In this document: positions 1,019-62,277 of the stretch, in pieces
How positions within the stretch are numbered: position 1 is the stretch's first letter
How the letters are laid out: the number at the start of each line of letters is the position of its first letter
Origin: Pricia antarctica
GTDB taxonomy: Bacteria > Bacteroidota > Bacteroidia > Flavobacteriales > Flavobacteriaceae
Length of the DNA: 64,000 nt
NCBI GenBank assembly: GCA_011050085.1
Contig: DRGL01000036.1
Coordinates: 62,001 to 126,000, forward strand
Direction of reading: 5' to 3'
Program-made: the position numbers and the translations under genes
Notes under the pieces: model-generated
The model's database searches: none
What the model was told of the DNA's origin: nothing
The model's input: the letters and a program-made list of their open reading frames with translations, nothing else

Positions 1019-1106
1019 CAACTCGTTTTTTTTTCCATCCTAAATTATGTACATCTTTATAGTCCCAAATCTTACCAAACCAACCTAACTTCATGCTAGA
1101 AACCCT
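1019..1106 (+). repeat. Diverged direct repeat, copy 1
   Basis: This segment matches 1894-1980. The best part is 1052-1082 against 1927-1957, with 30 of 31 bases equal by eye, including AGTCCCAAATCTTACCAAAC. Each copy runs straight into a terminator hairpin whose stem sequence differs between the copies. In the matching frame both copies encode VPNLTKP followed by one residue and a stop, so the repeat may be the 3' end of duplicated genes rather than a mobile element. Confidence 0.6.
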
Positions 1107-1123
1107 GTTCGCGAACAGGGTTT
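1100..1123 (+). terminator. Palindromic terminator hairpin
   Basis: This is a perfect 24-base palindrome (AACCCTGTTCGCGAACAGGGTT core) followed by a T-rich tract. No intact gene lies directly upstream on the plus strand. It closes repeat copy 1, which suggests that it once ended a now decayed gene. Confidence 0.7.
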
Positions 1124-1525
1124 TTTAGTTTTTATGATTACTTAAATACCCTGTTTCAACTCTTATTACTAAAGTTCATCTTGTAATATTTTTACCTAAT
1201 GCCAACTCCCCAAATAATCGACATTTTAGTATACCTCGTTTATATTGTTTAATTTTTTTATTTAAATTTTAAACAAATATTTCGATAATATATCAACTAT
1301 TATCAATTCTCTATAGTACATGTGCAGCACATTACAGCTCCTAATCTACCAAAACCCTTAGTCTATGAATAACGGAGATTATGCTTAACTATAACTTACT
1401 AAGATTTCCTAGCTAGTCTAAATAGTTTGGTCAAAACTAGACTACCATCGATAATTTTAAAGGGGATGAAGAATTTGTTTTCCTTCATTTTTTTTCCAAT
1501 AGAATGTTGGACATGACGTATTTCT

Positions 1526-14049: not shown

Positions 14050-14150
14050 AGCTTAATAAAAAATGAAGTCCGGGCTACCAAACCCGGACTTCTCATCAAA
14101 ATCAAAAAAACCAACCTAAACACATAAACTCTTTACTTCTTTTTCAATGC
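14050..14150 (-). ncRNA. Candidate small RNA, copy 1 of a two-copy intergenic element
   Basis: On the minus strand an AT-rich leader contains TTTATGTGTTTAGGTTGG (about 14110-14127) and runs into a strong hairpin and T run (14065-14092). A similar layout, TTTATTGGTTAGGTTG then an unrelated hairpin and T-rich tail, is found at 58812-58930. Upstream of the motif both copies also share TGAAAAAGAA-like bases. Conserved leader with a conserved position but changed sequence of the hairpin is what a small RNA or leader family would show. The ends are approximate and no promoter is clear. Confidence 0.35.
14065..14092 (-). terminator. Minus-strand intrinsic terminator
   Basis: A 10-bp GC-rich stem (GAAGTCCGGG/CCCGGACTTC) with an 8-base loop is followed on the minus strand by ATTTTTTATT. 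There is no T run on the plus side. No protein gene ends nearby on the minus strand, which supports a short noncoding transcript. Confidence 0.75.
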
Positions 14151-14406
14151 AATTTTTTTATATAACAATGCACTATTTAATTACCCTACTTCACTTTTGG
14201 ACTTTTTTGCAAATTTCTTTTATAGTGGGTAATAAATATTCAAATCACATTACCAATATGGAAAAAATAATTTCATAACTAATTGTTTATCAATAAGTAG
14301 TGCTTTTAAAAAATCCAAATTAGAATATTTACTTTCAGGCGACATATGTTAGTACTGTTCACAGATATTGATTACCGCGAAACCTTGGCCTATCTTTACA
14401 AAAGCA

Positions 14407-15209: not shown

Positions 15210-17003
15210 ATGTCGAATCCCATTACCCCCAAGCTTTTTCTTGACGGCGAAGACTTTCTGCCCAATCACGGCTATAGTGCTAGGGTCGAACAATCCCTCG
15301 GCGGGCACAGCAGCTTCAGCATCTCCTTTCCAGCTAACGCAACCGAAACCTATGCCGGCGCACTGATGGAGAACACCATTGGGTTCATCGGCAAGCGTAT
15401 GTCAATAAGCCTCGATGACGGGGCTATGGAATACACCGGTCTGGTCACCTCTGTCGATTTGCAAAAAGGTATGGGCGCAGGGGGCATAATGGTTGTTTCT
15501 GGACAAGGACCCTCAGTTCTATTGGCAAATTCGGTGCAGTGCCTCAGTTACCCAGAGGGAACTATGCTATCTCAAGTGGTTTCCGCTACAATAGAGGGCC
15601 ATTCCACTGAAATACTTAGCGCCGTTATGGGCTCAGGCACTGATATTGCGCTACCCTACACCGTTCAGTACAATGAGACCGACTTTTCATTTTTACAGCG
15701 GCTGTGTCGACGCTACGGCCTCTGGTTTTACCACAACGGACAAGACTATTGCATCGGGCGGAGCGGCGGTGAACGAATAGAGGGTACCTACGGTGTTGAC
15801 GTCACTTCTTTCAACCTTTCTACCTCCTTACGTGAGAGCGTTCCAGAATTCAGCGGCCATGACTGGATGAACGATACCCTTTTCGAAACACCCTCGTCCT
15901 CGGCATCACCGAAGTCGGGACATCCCTATTTCGACCGAGTGAAACAAGAATCGAACCTAAATTTTTCCAAAAAGGGAAATTACGACTACACCTCCGGCCA
16001 ACACGAGTTCAGTCGACAGGACGGCATGGATGCTGCTGCCAAAGTTAGTGCCCTAAGCGCTACCGCAAATATGATAACCGCTTCGGGTGTCTCAGGGCTC
16101 GTGAACCTTCGCATCGGGGACATCCTTGCCCTTGAAGGAATCGATTTCTCCGACGCCTCCGAAAGGCACATCTTCGGTAGTTACGATATCACCAAAATAA
16201 CGCACAGCTTCGACCACAGCGGGCAATATCAAAACCGTTTCGAGGCGGTTACAGCGGACACCGAGCATCCGCCATCTTCCGACTTTTCAGCTGCGCCAAG
16301 CGCTGTCGACCAGCGCGGACTTGTGATTGACAACATTGACCCCGAAGGGCTGGGTCGCGTCAAGGTCCAGTTTCCTTGGCAAAAACAAATAAGCCAGTCT
16401 ACGCCTTGGATAAAGATGTCGACCCCATACGGCGGAAGTGGTAGAGGCTTCTACTTCATCCCCGAGAAGGGCGAGGAAGTGCTGGTAGGCTTTGAGGGCA
16501 TGAACCCTGAGAAACCGTATGTAGTCGGTGGCGGGTACAGTGCTTCCGCCAAAAGTGGGTTCGCCGACAGTGAGAACAATATCAAAGCCATCAGAACACG
16601 AAGTGGCCATACCATTGAACTAAACGATACGGAGGGCGGGGAAATGATTACCATCAACGATAAGGAAGGTAATAGCATTCACATCAACACTTCTAAAGGA
16701 AAAATGGTGTTTACCGCAAATGGCGATATGGAGTTTAATGCGAAGAACGTACGATTTAATGTTCAGGAGGATATGGATTTGGAAATTGGGGGGAATAAAA
16801 CTGAAAATATTTCAGGAAAGATTGAGATTTCTGCAGAAAATAGTATTGAGAACGTAGATAAATCAAAGAGAATACATATTGGCAAAAAATTGGAGCAAGT
16901 TTCGGGTGAGCTAATCGTAAAAACAACACAAGGTAAAATGTTGTTCGATGGTAAGGGCAAGGTAGCCCTTCAGAGTAAAGAGAAAGTGTCCTACGGACGA
17001 TAA
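15210..17003 (+). CDS. vgrG: T6SS spike protein VgrG
   Basis: VgrG trimers form the tip of the type VI secretion needle and carry effectors. The 597-residue protein shows the gp27-like base (residues 1 to about 360, with FLQRLCRRYGLWFYHNGQDY), then the gp5 OB fold (GLVIDNIDPEGLGRVKVQFP) and the signature TPWIKMSTPYGGSGRGFYFIP with PEKGEEVLVGFEGMNPEKPY. Last comes the beta-helix of repeated short strands, starting near IKAIRTRSGHTIELND. Base composition is high (32 of 60 GC at 15241-15300) until about 16,650, then falls sharply (18 of 60 at 16801-16860), so the C-terminal 115 residues or so belong compositionally with the effector behind it. The effector gene starts 9 bases after the stop. No T6SS sheath, baseplate or tube genes are in the window, so this is an orphan vgrG. 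Confidence 0.95.
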   Translation: MSNPITPKLFLDGEDFLPNHGYSARVEQSLGGHSSFSISFPANATETYAGALMENTIGFIGKRMSISLDDGAMEYTGLVTSVDLQKGMGAGGIMVVSGQGPSVLLANSVQCLSYPEGTMLSQVVSATIEGHSTEILSAVMGSGTDIALPYTVQYNETDFSFLQRLCRRYGLWFYHNGQDYCIGRSGGERIEGTYGVDVTSFNLSTSLRESVPEFSGHDWMNDTLFETPSSSASPKSGHPYFDRVKQESNLNFSKKGNYDYTSGQHEFSRQDGMDAAAKVSALSATANMITASGVSGLVNLRIGDILALEGIDFSDASERHIFGSYDITKITHSFDHSGQYQNRFEAVTADTEHPPSSDFSAAPSAVDQRGLVIDNIDPEGLGRVKVQFPWQKQISQSTPWIKMSTPYGGSGRGFYFIPEKGEEVLVGFEGMNPEKPYVVGGGYSASAKSGFADSENNIKAIRTRSGHTIELNDTEGGEMITINDKEGNSIHINTSKGKMVFTANGDMEFNAKNVRFNVQEDMDLEIGGNKTENISGKIEISAENSIENVDKSKRIHIGKKLEQVSGELIVKTTQGKMLFDGKGKVALQSKEKVSYGR

Positions 17004-58811: not shown

Positions 58812-58930
58812 TTAAAAATAAAAACGTGCTCTCAAGTGAAAGCACGTTTTCAAACAACCTAACCAATAAATAATCAAAACATGATTATGACTTAATTTCT
58901 TTTTCATAGCAACGCTTTCATAATCACTGT
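58812..58930 (-). ncRNA. Candidate small RNA, copy 2 of the two-copy element
   Basis: The minus strand contains TTTATTGGTTAGGTTG (about 58855-58871) and then the hairpin and T-rich tail of 58821-58850. The leader and order match the element near 14,100. A 9-bp inverted pair, TGATTATGA and TCATAATCA (about 58882-58927), could form an additional stem in the leader. A TATATTTA -7-like box lies on the minus strand at 58930-58937. Ends are approximate. Confidence 0.35.
58821..58850 (-). terminator. Minus-strand intrinsic terminator
   Basis: A perfect 10-bp stem AAAACGTGCT/AGCACGTTTT with a 10-base loop, followed on the minus strand by TATTTTTA. A plus-strand T run (GTTTTC) is shorter. Confidence 0.65.
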
Positions 58931-59032
58931 AAATATAGGTAAATGTTTAATGATATGAAGAATAGATTAAACAAAAAAAATGTTAAACTTTTCTTTATTT
59001 ACTTAACTATGGTAGTTTACAGTATAAAAGAG

Positions 59033-59069
59033 TGTCAGTTTGTCACGCAAAATGGCTATGGTACTTTTT
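59033..59069 (+). promoter_or_regulatory. Candidate stress promoter or operator of htpG
   Basis: Two TGTCA direct repeats 8 bases apart (59033 and 59041) stand ahead of ATGGCTATGGTACTTTTTTT, ending about 110 bases upstream of htpG. I recall a similar TGTCA/TGGC arrangement near heat-shock genes in flavobacteria but cannot verify it here. The usual TAnnTTTG box is absent. Confidence 0.3.
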
Positions 59070-59182
59070 TTGACTATCAACATCCTGAGAATAATCTTAG
59101 ACTTAGAAAGTTTGAAGGTTAAGCTTTAGAATTAAATGATAACAAATAACTGCACAAGCGGTTCTACTAAATAACTTTTTTT

Positions 59183-61359: not shown

Positions 61360-62277
61360 ATGAAACTAAACCATATTACCATACTATTTTTAAGCCTATG
61401 CGTCAGCTATATGCATGCGCAAGACGAACTTCCTATCAAAATAGACAATGGTCATATCAAACCGCTTAGGCAATTTCTCGACAGTTCGCTACAAGCCAGT
61501 TTTGAACAGGAATTAAAAAGCCACCCAGATTGGGCCGATTTAATTGCCCAAAAGAAAATGGCGGTAGGCATAGTTGACCTAAGCAATCCCGAAACACCTC
61601 GGTTTGCACGCGTAAACGGGAATTTCATGATGTACGCGGCCAGCTTGCCCAAAATTGCCATTCTCTTAGCGGCGACCGATGCCATTGAAAAGGGAGAACT
61701 CAAAGAAACTGCAGAGGTAAAAAAAGATATGCGACTTATGATCAGTAAATCGAACAATCAAGCCGCAACCCGTATGATCGACCGCTTGGGATACGAAAAA
61801 TTGGAGGCCGTGATGACCGATCCAAAATATGATTTTTACGATGAAGAAAATGGTGGTGGACTTTGGGTAGGCAAACGTTACGGCGGAGGTGGTGAAACCC
61901 ATCGCGAACCTTTAAAACATTTAAGCCATGCAGCAACGGTCACTCAAGTATGCCGTTTTTATTATCTGCTCGCCAACGGAAAACTGGTCAATGAGAAACG
62001 CTCGAAAGACATGTTGGCCGCGCTCGAAAATCCTGAACTACACCATAAATTTGTGAATACGTTAGATAAAGTTGCCCCAAATGCAAGACTTTTCCGGAAA
62101 TCGGGTTCTTGGCGCACCTTTCATTCCGATTCAATTTTGGTCTGGGGCGAGAATGCGAGTCGACGTTATATTATTGTTGCTTTGATCGATGATGCGAACG
62201 GCGAGCAGATTATTCGGGATTTGGTACGTCCGATTGAAAAGGTTTTGAAAAAGGACATATCTTTGGTTACGAAGTAG
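61360..62277 (+). CDS. Class A beta-lactamase-like serine hydrolase
   Basis: This 305-residue exported protein (signal TILFLSLCVSYMHAQ) has serine-lactamase motifs: S-x-x-K at residues 95-98 (ASLPKIAIL), S-x-N at 131-133 (SKSNNQAATRMI), and K-[ST]-G at 247-249 (FRKSGSW, KSG). The spacings are those of class A enzymes. The residues between do not show the usual Glu166 loop, so it may be a penicillin-binding or D-Ala-peptidase-like relative, and resistance should not be assumed. A single gene, downstream of the htpG terminator. Confidence 0.8.
   Translation: MKLNHITILFLSLCVSYMHAQDELPIKIDNGHIKPLRQFLDSSLQASFEQELKSHPDWADLIAQKKMAVGIVDLSNPETPRFARVNGNFMMYAASLPKIAILLAATDAIEKGELKETAEVKKDMRLMISKSNNQAATRMIDRLGYEKLEAVMTDPKYDFYDEENGGGLWVGKRYGGGGETHREPLKHLSHAATVTQVCRFYYLLANGKLVNEKRSKDMLAALENPELHHKFVNTLDKVAPNARLFRKSGSWRTFHSDSILVWGENASRRYIIVALIDDANGEQIIRDLVRPIEKVLKKDISLVTK

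Follow-up and report, generated by a model that had tools for sequence, protein, structure and literature searches.

Two conserved intergenic elements of Pricia antarctica as probable small regulatory RNA genes of Flavobacteriaceae

What are two short minus-strand elements doing between the genes of Pricia antarctica, each placed divergently from a plus-strand neighbor? The window considered here is a stretch of 64,000 nucleotides (assembly GCA_011050085.1, contig DRGL01000036.1, forward-strand positions 62,001 to 126,000), for which an earlier note, made from the letters alone, had proposed a two-copy intergenic element resembling a small RNA family. Both copies are real. Each reads TTTAT...TTAGGTTG on the minus strand, followed by a hairpin and a T run, and conserved strand and hairpin together occupy 14,058-14,128 and 58,814-58,873. 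The hairpins differ in sequence and hold the same position (folding z-scores -2.4 and -3.8), and the plus-strand PNPOx and htpG genes begin roughly 240-310 nt away, as had been described. The first copy had been misread in its letters: its sequence is GTTTAGGTTG, not GTTAGGTTG. The 58.8-kb element, divergent from htpG, is called sRNA-A below, and the 14.1-kb element, divergent from the PNPOx gene, sRNA-B.

The 12-mer shared by the two elements has four matches in the window with at most one mismatch, against 2.7 expected, which alone is not significant. Since the word is no commoner than expected, conservation was tested, and it is conservation that raises the shared motif above chance. A third window match, at 1,077-1,088, was rejected as a copy, its hairpin standing on the wrong side; in this region (1060-1130, minus strand) TTAGGTTGGTTT stands beside a strong hairpin, on its other side, and is no family member. 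Further copies in related genomes, as expected of a family, were found: sRNA-A and sRNA-B each occur in the own genome and in additional genera; of the three further genomes in the genus, two carry each element, and the one lacking them is 79% complete. With blastn at E<=0.01 against 149 genomes of the family, sRNA-A has a match in 56 genomes and sRNA-B in 50, weak matches included. When 30 loci per query were read, 28 carried sRNA-A and 16 carried sRNA-B; these sets are independent of the exact 20-nt pattern used below, yet tilted toward conserved stretches.

Wider searches place the elements mainly within one bacterial family. A combined A/B pattern, fitting the conserved strands of both elements, occurs at 16 places in 13 genomes among 395 of the order, against 1 for the reversed control. 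The hairpin is present at 14 of these places, in 11 genomes that all belong to the same family as the host, while the places in G591 and G171 are without it and were set aside. Among the listed genomes of a large genus of the same family (g127, perhaps Flavobacterium), the combined pattern has no match. The exact sRNA-A pattern retrieved at least 116 stretches from named genomes, and since these loci were fetched by that 20-nt pattern, conservation inside it is by construction. Of the 116 listed, 111 have a hairpin with a T run, one (L214) has no strong hairpin, and four (L143, L231, L240, L246) fold strongly and were missed by the T-run test. The 80 stretches with titles come mostly from Flavobacteriaceae, including Maribacter, Flagellimonas/Muricauda, Aquimarina, Croceivirga, Kordia, Salegentibacter, Robiginitalea and others; the remaining titles are a few MAGs titled Bacteroidetes or Bacteroidia only and one Algicola sp., a label taken as given. 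Because RNAalifold missed the 5′ helix of sRNA-A, whose length varies, the covariance model R1 contains terminator pairs only, and its class search under strict filters gave 8 of 295, which is no measure of distribution. One R1 match from the same family (L099) is sRNA-A; those outside the family (L098 and L100-L104) look for the most part like lead-ins to other terminators or a lipoprotein start and were rejected.

The predicted layout of sRNA-A (Table 1) comprises a sigma-A-type box, a 5′ hairpin, the C-free strand UUAUUUAUUGGUUAGGUUGUU and a terminator. Of 80 loop-bearing loci, 76 have a promoter box 12-55 nt upstream of the loop; among 2320 random 50-nt stretches, 169 contain one. The accessible part of one study places the flavobacterial promoter box at -12 to -5 (PMC9723704), and a +1 set in this way is G in 80% of the 76 loci; in the own sRNA-A, the predicted +1 G opens the 5′ stem GATTATG. 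The inverted repeat over the promoter, searched as TTTAA-N8..24-TTAAAC, is found in 42 of the 80 loop-bearing loci (37 with exactly 16 between the arms) and in 9 of 1600 random stretches, which suggests control by a DNA-binding regulator.

The 5′ helix of sRNA-A, built around UUGCUAUGAAAAAG, covaries. In 28 sequences the own arms pair at -10.05 kcal/mol, against -6.17 (sd 0.46) for re-dealt arms, and in 57 further sequences at -10.42 against -7.05 (sd 0.33), with 0 of 20000 re-dealings as good in either set; the arm re-dealing tests, here and below, ignore the tree. Pairing is weak in some sequences (L022, L025 and several of the ABC1 type described below). The strand behind this helix is unpaired and near invariant in the blastn set. 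In the terminator, 10 of 12 pairs have changed on both sides, with the structure taken from the same alignment as the count, and 89.1% of cells are paired compared with 76.4% after shuffling; one terminator test used only rows with a predicted hairpin, so that its gap arises partly by selection. Loci L033 and L034 had been dropped from sRNA-A before these counts, and L022 and L035 from alignment A3. The changing stem had been taken in the earlier note as a mark of RNA selection. The stem does vary while the layout is kept, a view to be refined in that the stem is the terminator and that the 5′ helix of sRNA-A covaries as well.

sRNA-B opens differently. First in order stand GTAGGGTA and TTGTT, whose spacing is fixed; next come AAATTGCTATGAAAAAG and a part that varies in length from about 10 to about 90 nt; [CT]ATGTGTTTAGGTTGG follows, and a U-rich stretch leads to the terminator. 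The motif AAAUUGCUAUGAAAAAG is common to sRNA-A and is followed by the strand UUCAUGUGUUUAGGUUGG and the terminator. A 5′ helix is not supported in sRNA-B, as 2367 of 20000 re-dealings of the 5′ arm against the middle part pair as well; against the strand region, 21 of 20000 do. Before counting, 14 of the 30 fetched loci were dropped from sRNA-B, and L042, L051 and L052 from alignment A4. The four genomes of the genus contain 12 occurrences of GTAGGGTA-N9..13-TTGTT, three of them being sRNA-B, against 6 in the control, and this promoter-like element may represent an alternative-sigma promoter class. Two of the 12 sites precede a lipoprotein-like gene (L256, G001:C18:202093-202118, and L259, G003:C106:17987-18012, both minus strand), with the GTAGGGTA-N13-TTGTT spacing equal to that of sRNA-B and a conserved leader. 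Single loci show further variation: the variable part of L042, L045 and L046 contains an extra hairpin, CTTCATCC...GG[AG]TG[AG]AG, whose loop and arms change. In L052 (G029:C4, about 193,955), TTAGGTTGG recurs 88 nt behind its sRNA-B occurrence and is likewise followed by a possible hairpin, a candidate tandem copy of the sRNA-B 3′ part.

Table 1. Features of sRNA-A and sRNA-B in the window, with the basis for each.
Feature	Coordinates	Strand	Basis
sRNA-A inverted repeat TTTAA-N16-TTAAAC over the promoter, possible regulator site	58945..58971	-	count against random
sRNA-A sigma-A-type promoter box TATATTTA (TAnnTTTG class)	58930..58937	-	count against random
sRNA-A predicted transcript, about 110 nt	58814..58925	-	5′ end predicted from box position
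sRNA-A 5′ hairpin, loop TTGCTATGAAAAAG at 58,899-58,912	58878..58925	-	arm re-dealing
sRNA-A conserved unpaired strand TTATTTATTGGTTAGGTTGTTTG	58851..58873	-	near invariant in 27 blastn-fetched sequences, alignment A3
sRNA-A intrinsic terminator	58814..58850	-	fold and pair changes
sRNA-B GTAGGGTA element	14182..14189	-	GTAGGGT invariant in 14 aligned sequences, fixed distance to TTGTT
sRNA-B TTGTTATATA element, 13 nt behind GTAGGGTA	14159..14168	-	putative promoter role
sRNA-B predicted transcript, about 98 nt	14058..14155 (5′ end approximate)	-	5′ end a guess
sRNA-B own form TTGCATTGAAAAAG of the motif TTGCTATGAAAAAG shared with sRNA-A	14139..14152	-	A4 consensus, 17-nt consensus match
sRNA-B conserved strand TTTATGTGTTTAGGTTGGTTTTTTTGATTTTGA	14096..14128	-	ATGTGTTTAGGTTGG invariant in 14 sequences
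sRNA-B intrinsic terminator	14058..14092	-	fold; changes on both sides in 7 of 12 consensus pairs

The two elements are related to each other, as the idea of a two-copy family had implied, and each is at the same time a separate RNA, present in one copy and with orthologues of its own. Their consensus sequences have a 17-nt stretch in common, where the longest in 2000 shuffles is 12, and behind it both RNAs carry TTAGGTTGKTT (UUAGGUUGKUU in RNA) in the same order. In all 10 genomes where both were seen on one contig (the own genome, G001, G002, G004, G014, G021, G029, G122, G790 and G808), a distance of 33-141 kb separates them and they share strand and order, sRNA-A preceding sRNA-B in the direction of transcription; five more genomes (G040, G088, G105, G106, G128) have them on separate contigs. 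Duplication is the simplest reading of this likeness, which may instead reflect shared constraint. Within the own genome, TTAGGTTGKTT occurs 8 times against 18 in the reversed control, two of these sites being sRNA-A and sRNA-B, and the loop motif, with at most one mismatch, 11 times against 8. The layout is absent from the six other TTAGGTTGKTT sites and from nine other loop-motif sites, a reading that leaves out L113, which lies off-centre in a short locus. Among the sites read, sRNA-A and sRNA-B are the only places in the own genome with the layout.

The surroundings of sRNA-A fall into two main arrangements. Among 29 loci from the blastn sets, htpG is divergent in 21, an ABC1-kinase gene (ABC1) lies upstream in 6, and neither is present in 2. 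The 116 listed loci of named genomes include 78 with htpG divergent (74 with the loop motif), 27 with ABC1 upstream (5 with the loop motif) and 11 that were not assigned. In Aquimarina-type loci (e.g. L161, L171, L206, L209), sRNA-A stands close behind the end of the ABC1-kinase gene, the UUGCUAUGAAAAAG loop is missing, and a different hairpin replaces the 5′ hairpin. The arms of this replacement also pair better than re-dealt arms (-12.5 against -10.2; 19 sequences, 0 of 20000), so the layout of hairpin, strand and terminator persists while its parts are exchanged. This form is apparently a 3′-UTR version of sRNA-A, at the 3′ end of the ABC1-kinase transcript. Two plus-strand neighbors within the window may be recorded here. 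Upstream of htpG (59033-59073), TGTCAGTTTGTCAC and a TGG...TTTG sequence are conserved in three genomes, the latter of which we take to be sigma54-like, and the translation of 15210-17003 resembles, by eye, a type VI secretion system protein of the VgrG type.

The original proposal is supported, and small RNA genes are the best reading of both elements, given their promoter elements, the helices that covary, an unpaired strand that hardly varies, the terminators, and persistence from genus to genus while the neighbors on the downstream side change. As expected of trans-encoded sRNAs, each appears by its sequence to be an independent intergenic gene with promoter and intrinsic terminator, and structure and sequence are both under selection. 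Both helices that flank the unpaired strand vary, whereas the strand itself is conserved. A C-free unpaired strand between two helices is the usual place of a trans-acting sRNA seed or of a protein site.

sRNA-A and sRNA-B are probably trans-acting regulatory sRNAs that pair with mRNAs, a reading to which we assign a probability of roughly 0.65. Under this proposal, the window would carry two genes for small regulatory RNAs that share an origin, sRNA-A driven by its own sigma-A-type box and controlled by a regulator through the inverted repeat, and sRNA-B by the different promoter-like element GTAGGGTA-N13-TTGTTATATA. The conserved strand would base-pair with mRNA leaders, in sRNA-B perhaps across start codons, as it contains the complement of ACAUGAA, and pairing would block translation, as GibS and FopS do in Bacteroides. 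Target searches in the own genome, in four genomes and at 400 translation starts gave no convincing target. AACCTAA-N0..14-ATGAA is not enriched in the own genome (34 against 35 in the control), and 18-nt sites with G-U pairs allowed number 38 in four genomes against 46, the antisense of sRNA-A itself included, which is also the only orthologous site seen in common. Over 400 of 533 mechanically called translation starts, 45 of 60 shuffles equal the mean pairing of sRNA-A and only 1 of 60 that of sRNA-B, whose better pairing arises partly because its CAU faces AUG.

The main rival to mRNA pairing holds that the conserved strand, with or without UUGCUAUGAAAAAG, is a site for a conserved RNA-binding protein and that the RNAs act chiefly as sponge or scaffold. 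Strict conservation over more than 20 nt in sRNA-A is long for a pairing seed and counts against pairing, and the searches gave no enriched target. Aquimarina-type loci have exchanged hairpin and host transcript and kept the strand, and it is this persistence, through changes of hairpins, promoter and even host transcript, that would make the C-free strand of sRNA-A a landing site for a conserved RNA-binding protein or other partner in Flavobacteriaceae. Against this, the strand of sRNA-B is partly different, and sRNA-B somewhat prefers translation starts. We consider a protein site unlikely, though a serious contender; if it is one, sibling RNAs under different promoters would feed one regulatory hub. 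We know of no protein partner of either RNA. For Bacteroides, Hfq and ProQ are stated to be not evident in the accessible part of one source (PMC7366714).

It is improbable that the elements are cis-acting leaders, attenuating the minus-strand genes downstream (TetR-ABC1 for sRNA-A, guaA for sRNA-B). The gene downstream frequently shares their strand and a leader terminator can attenuate, but the gene behind sRNA-A changes between genera (TetR-ABC1, an ABC1-neighbor fabH-like gene, or others), and in 27 of the 116 listed loci sRNA-A itself lies behind ABC1. PNPOx is the divergent neighbor of sRNA-B in 16 of 17 loci, while guaA follows within 1.5 kb in only 10 of 17 and is more than 1 kb away in the window. 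This variation argues for independent genes. No alternative antiterminator helix was noticed in an unsystematic look. Even less can be said for short mRNAs in which AUG AAA AAG opens a small conserved peptide. ATGAAAAAG is a typical start, and short frames follow, by eye, in many sRNA-B sequences; yet in 82 sRNA-A sequences the median distance from the AUG to an in-frame stop is 11 codons, with 7 and 13 in the other two frames, no coding signal, the region behind the AUG is a variable helix arm, the own sRNA-B has TTG for ATG, and the motif is absent from most loci behind ABC1. The elements are least likely to be mere terminators of neighboring transcripts with an AT-rich lead-in and no function of their own: the hairpins are intrinsic terminators and U-rich lead-ins precede other terminators too, but the 20-nt strand before the hairpin persists from genus to genus, sRNA-A has a covarying 5′ helix with a promoter box directly upstream, and, htpG and PNPOx being divergent, sRNA-A ends no upstream gene in 78 of the 116 listed loci.

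If sRNA-A and sRNA-B are regulatory sRNAs, they belong to no family found in Rfam, whose covariance search gave no family at gathering score, in the window or in 17 related loci, and permissive matches far below theirs. Flavo-1, an RNA motif of Flavobacteriaceae according to the accessible part of PMC9723704 and in that respect alike, had been named in the earlier note as a lead. It is not listed in the window at E up to 10, nor is it found at gathering score in 17 related loci, and the lead was dropped. MasB (BTnc201, RF04177), a Bacteroides sRNA of about 100 nt called narrowly conserved in the accessible part of its source (PMC10994844), is similar in length, terminator and C-poor unpaired lead-in. 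Its model scores sRNA-B at 24.7 bits (E 0.031) against a gathering score of 105, with no match listed for sRNA-A, and was rejected. Elsewhere in the window, STnc180 reaches 33.7 bits at 333-520 on the plus strand, against a gathering score of 50 and mostly through a terminator hairpin.

The closest known counterparts are sRNAs of Bacteroides thetaiotaomicron, GibS and FopS (PMC7366714, PMC11697453; accessible in part). As described there, they are paralogous intergenic Bacteroidota sRNAs with a long unpaired conserved region and a terminator, siblings under different promoter types (PM2 for GibS, sigma-ABfr for FopS), and FopS-14 is 3′-UTR-derived, as sRNA-A appears to be behind ABC1. Their conserved seed is 5′-terminal and base-pairs with mRNA start regions, that of susC among them, whereas the conserved strand of sRNA-A and sRNA-B stands directly before the terminator and each has one copy. 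Judged by these descriptions alone, sRNA-A and sRNA-B may work most like GibS and FopS. Within the same family of bacteria, the Rfp sRNAs were found experimentally in Flavobacterium psychrophilum (PMC9723704, in its accessible part); Rfp18, conserved in its genus, differs by description in having at least three stem-loops and pairing through the third. Five exact motif strings have no occurrence in the literature searched, which misses most subscription journals, and topic searches of that literature gave no such RNA. Set apart from GibS/FopS and Rfp by descriptions, sRNA-A and sRNA-B look like new RNA families of an ordinary kind.

Few flavobacterial small RNAs have been characterised so far. 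The switch of sRNA-A between a free-standing gene and what is apparently the 3′ end of a kinase transcript offers a natural experiment on the origin of 3′-UTR sRNAs. The two families are ready for annotation and, as conserved, linked, single-copy sibling sRNAs outside Rfam, would offer an entry point to the study of post-transcriptional control in a large group of marine bacteria.
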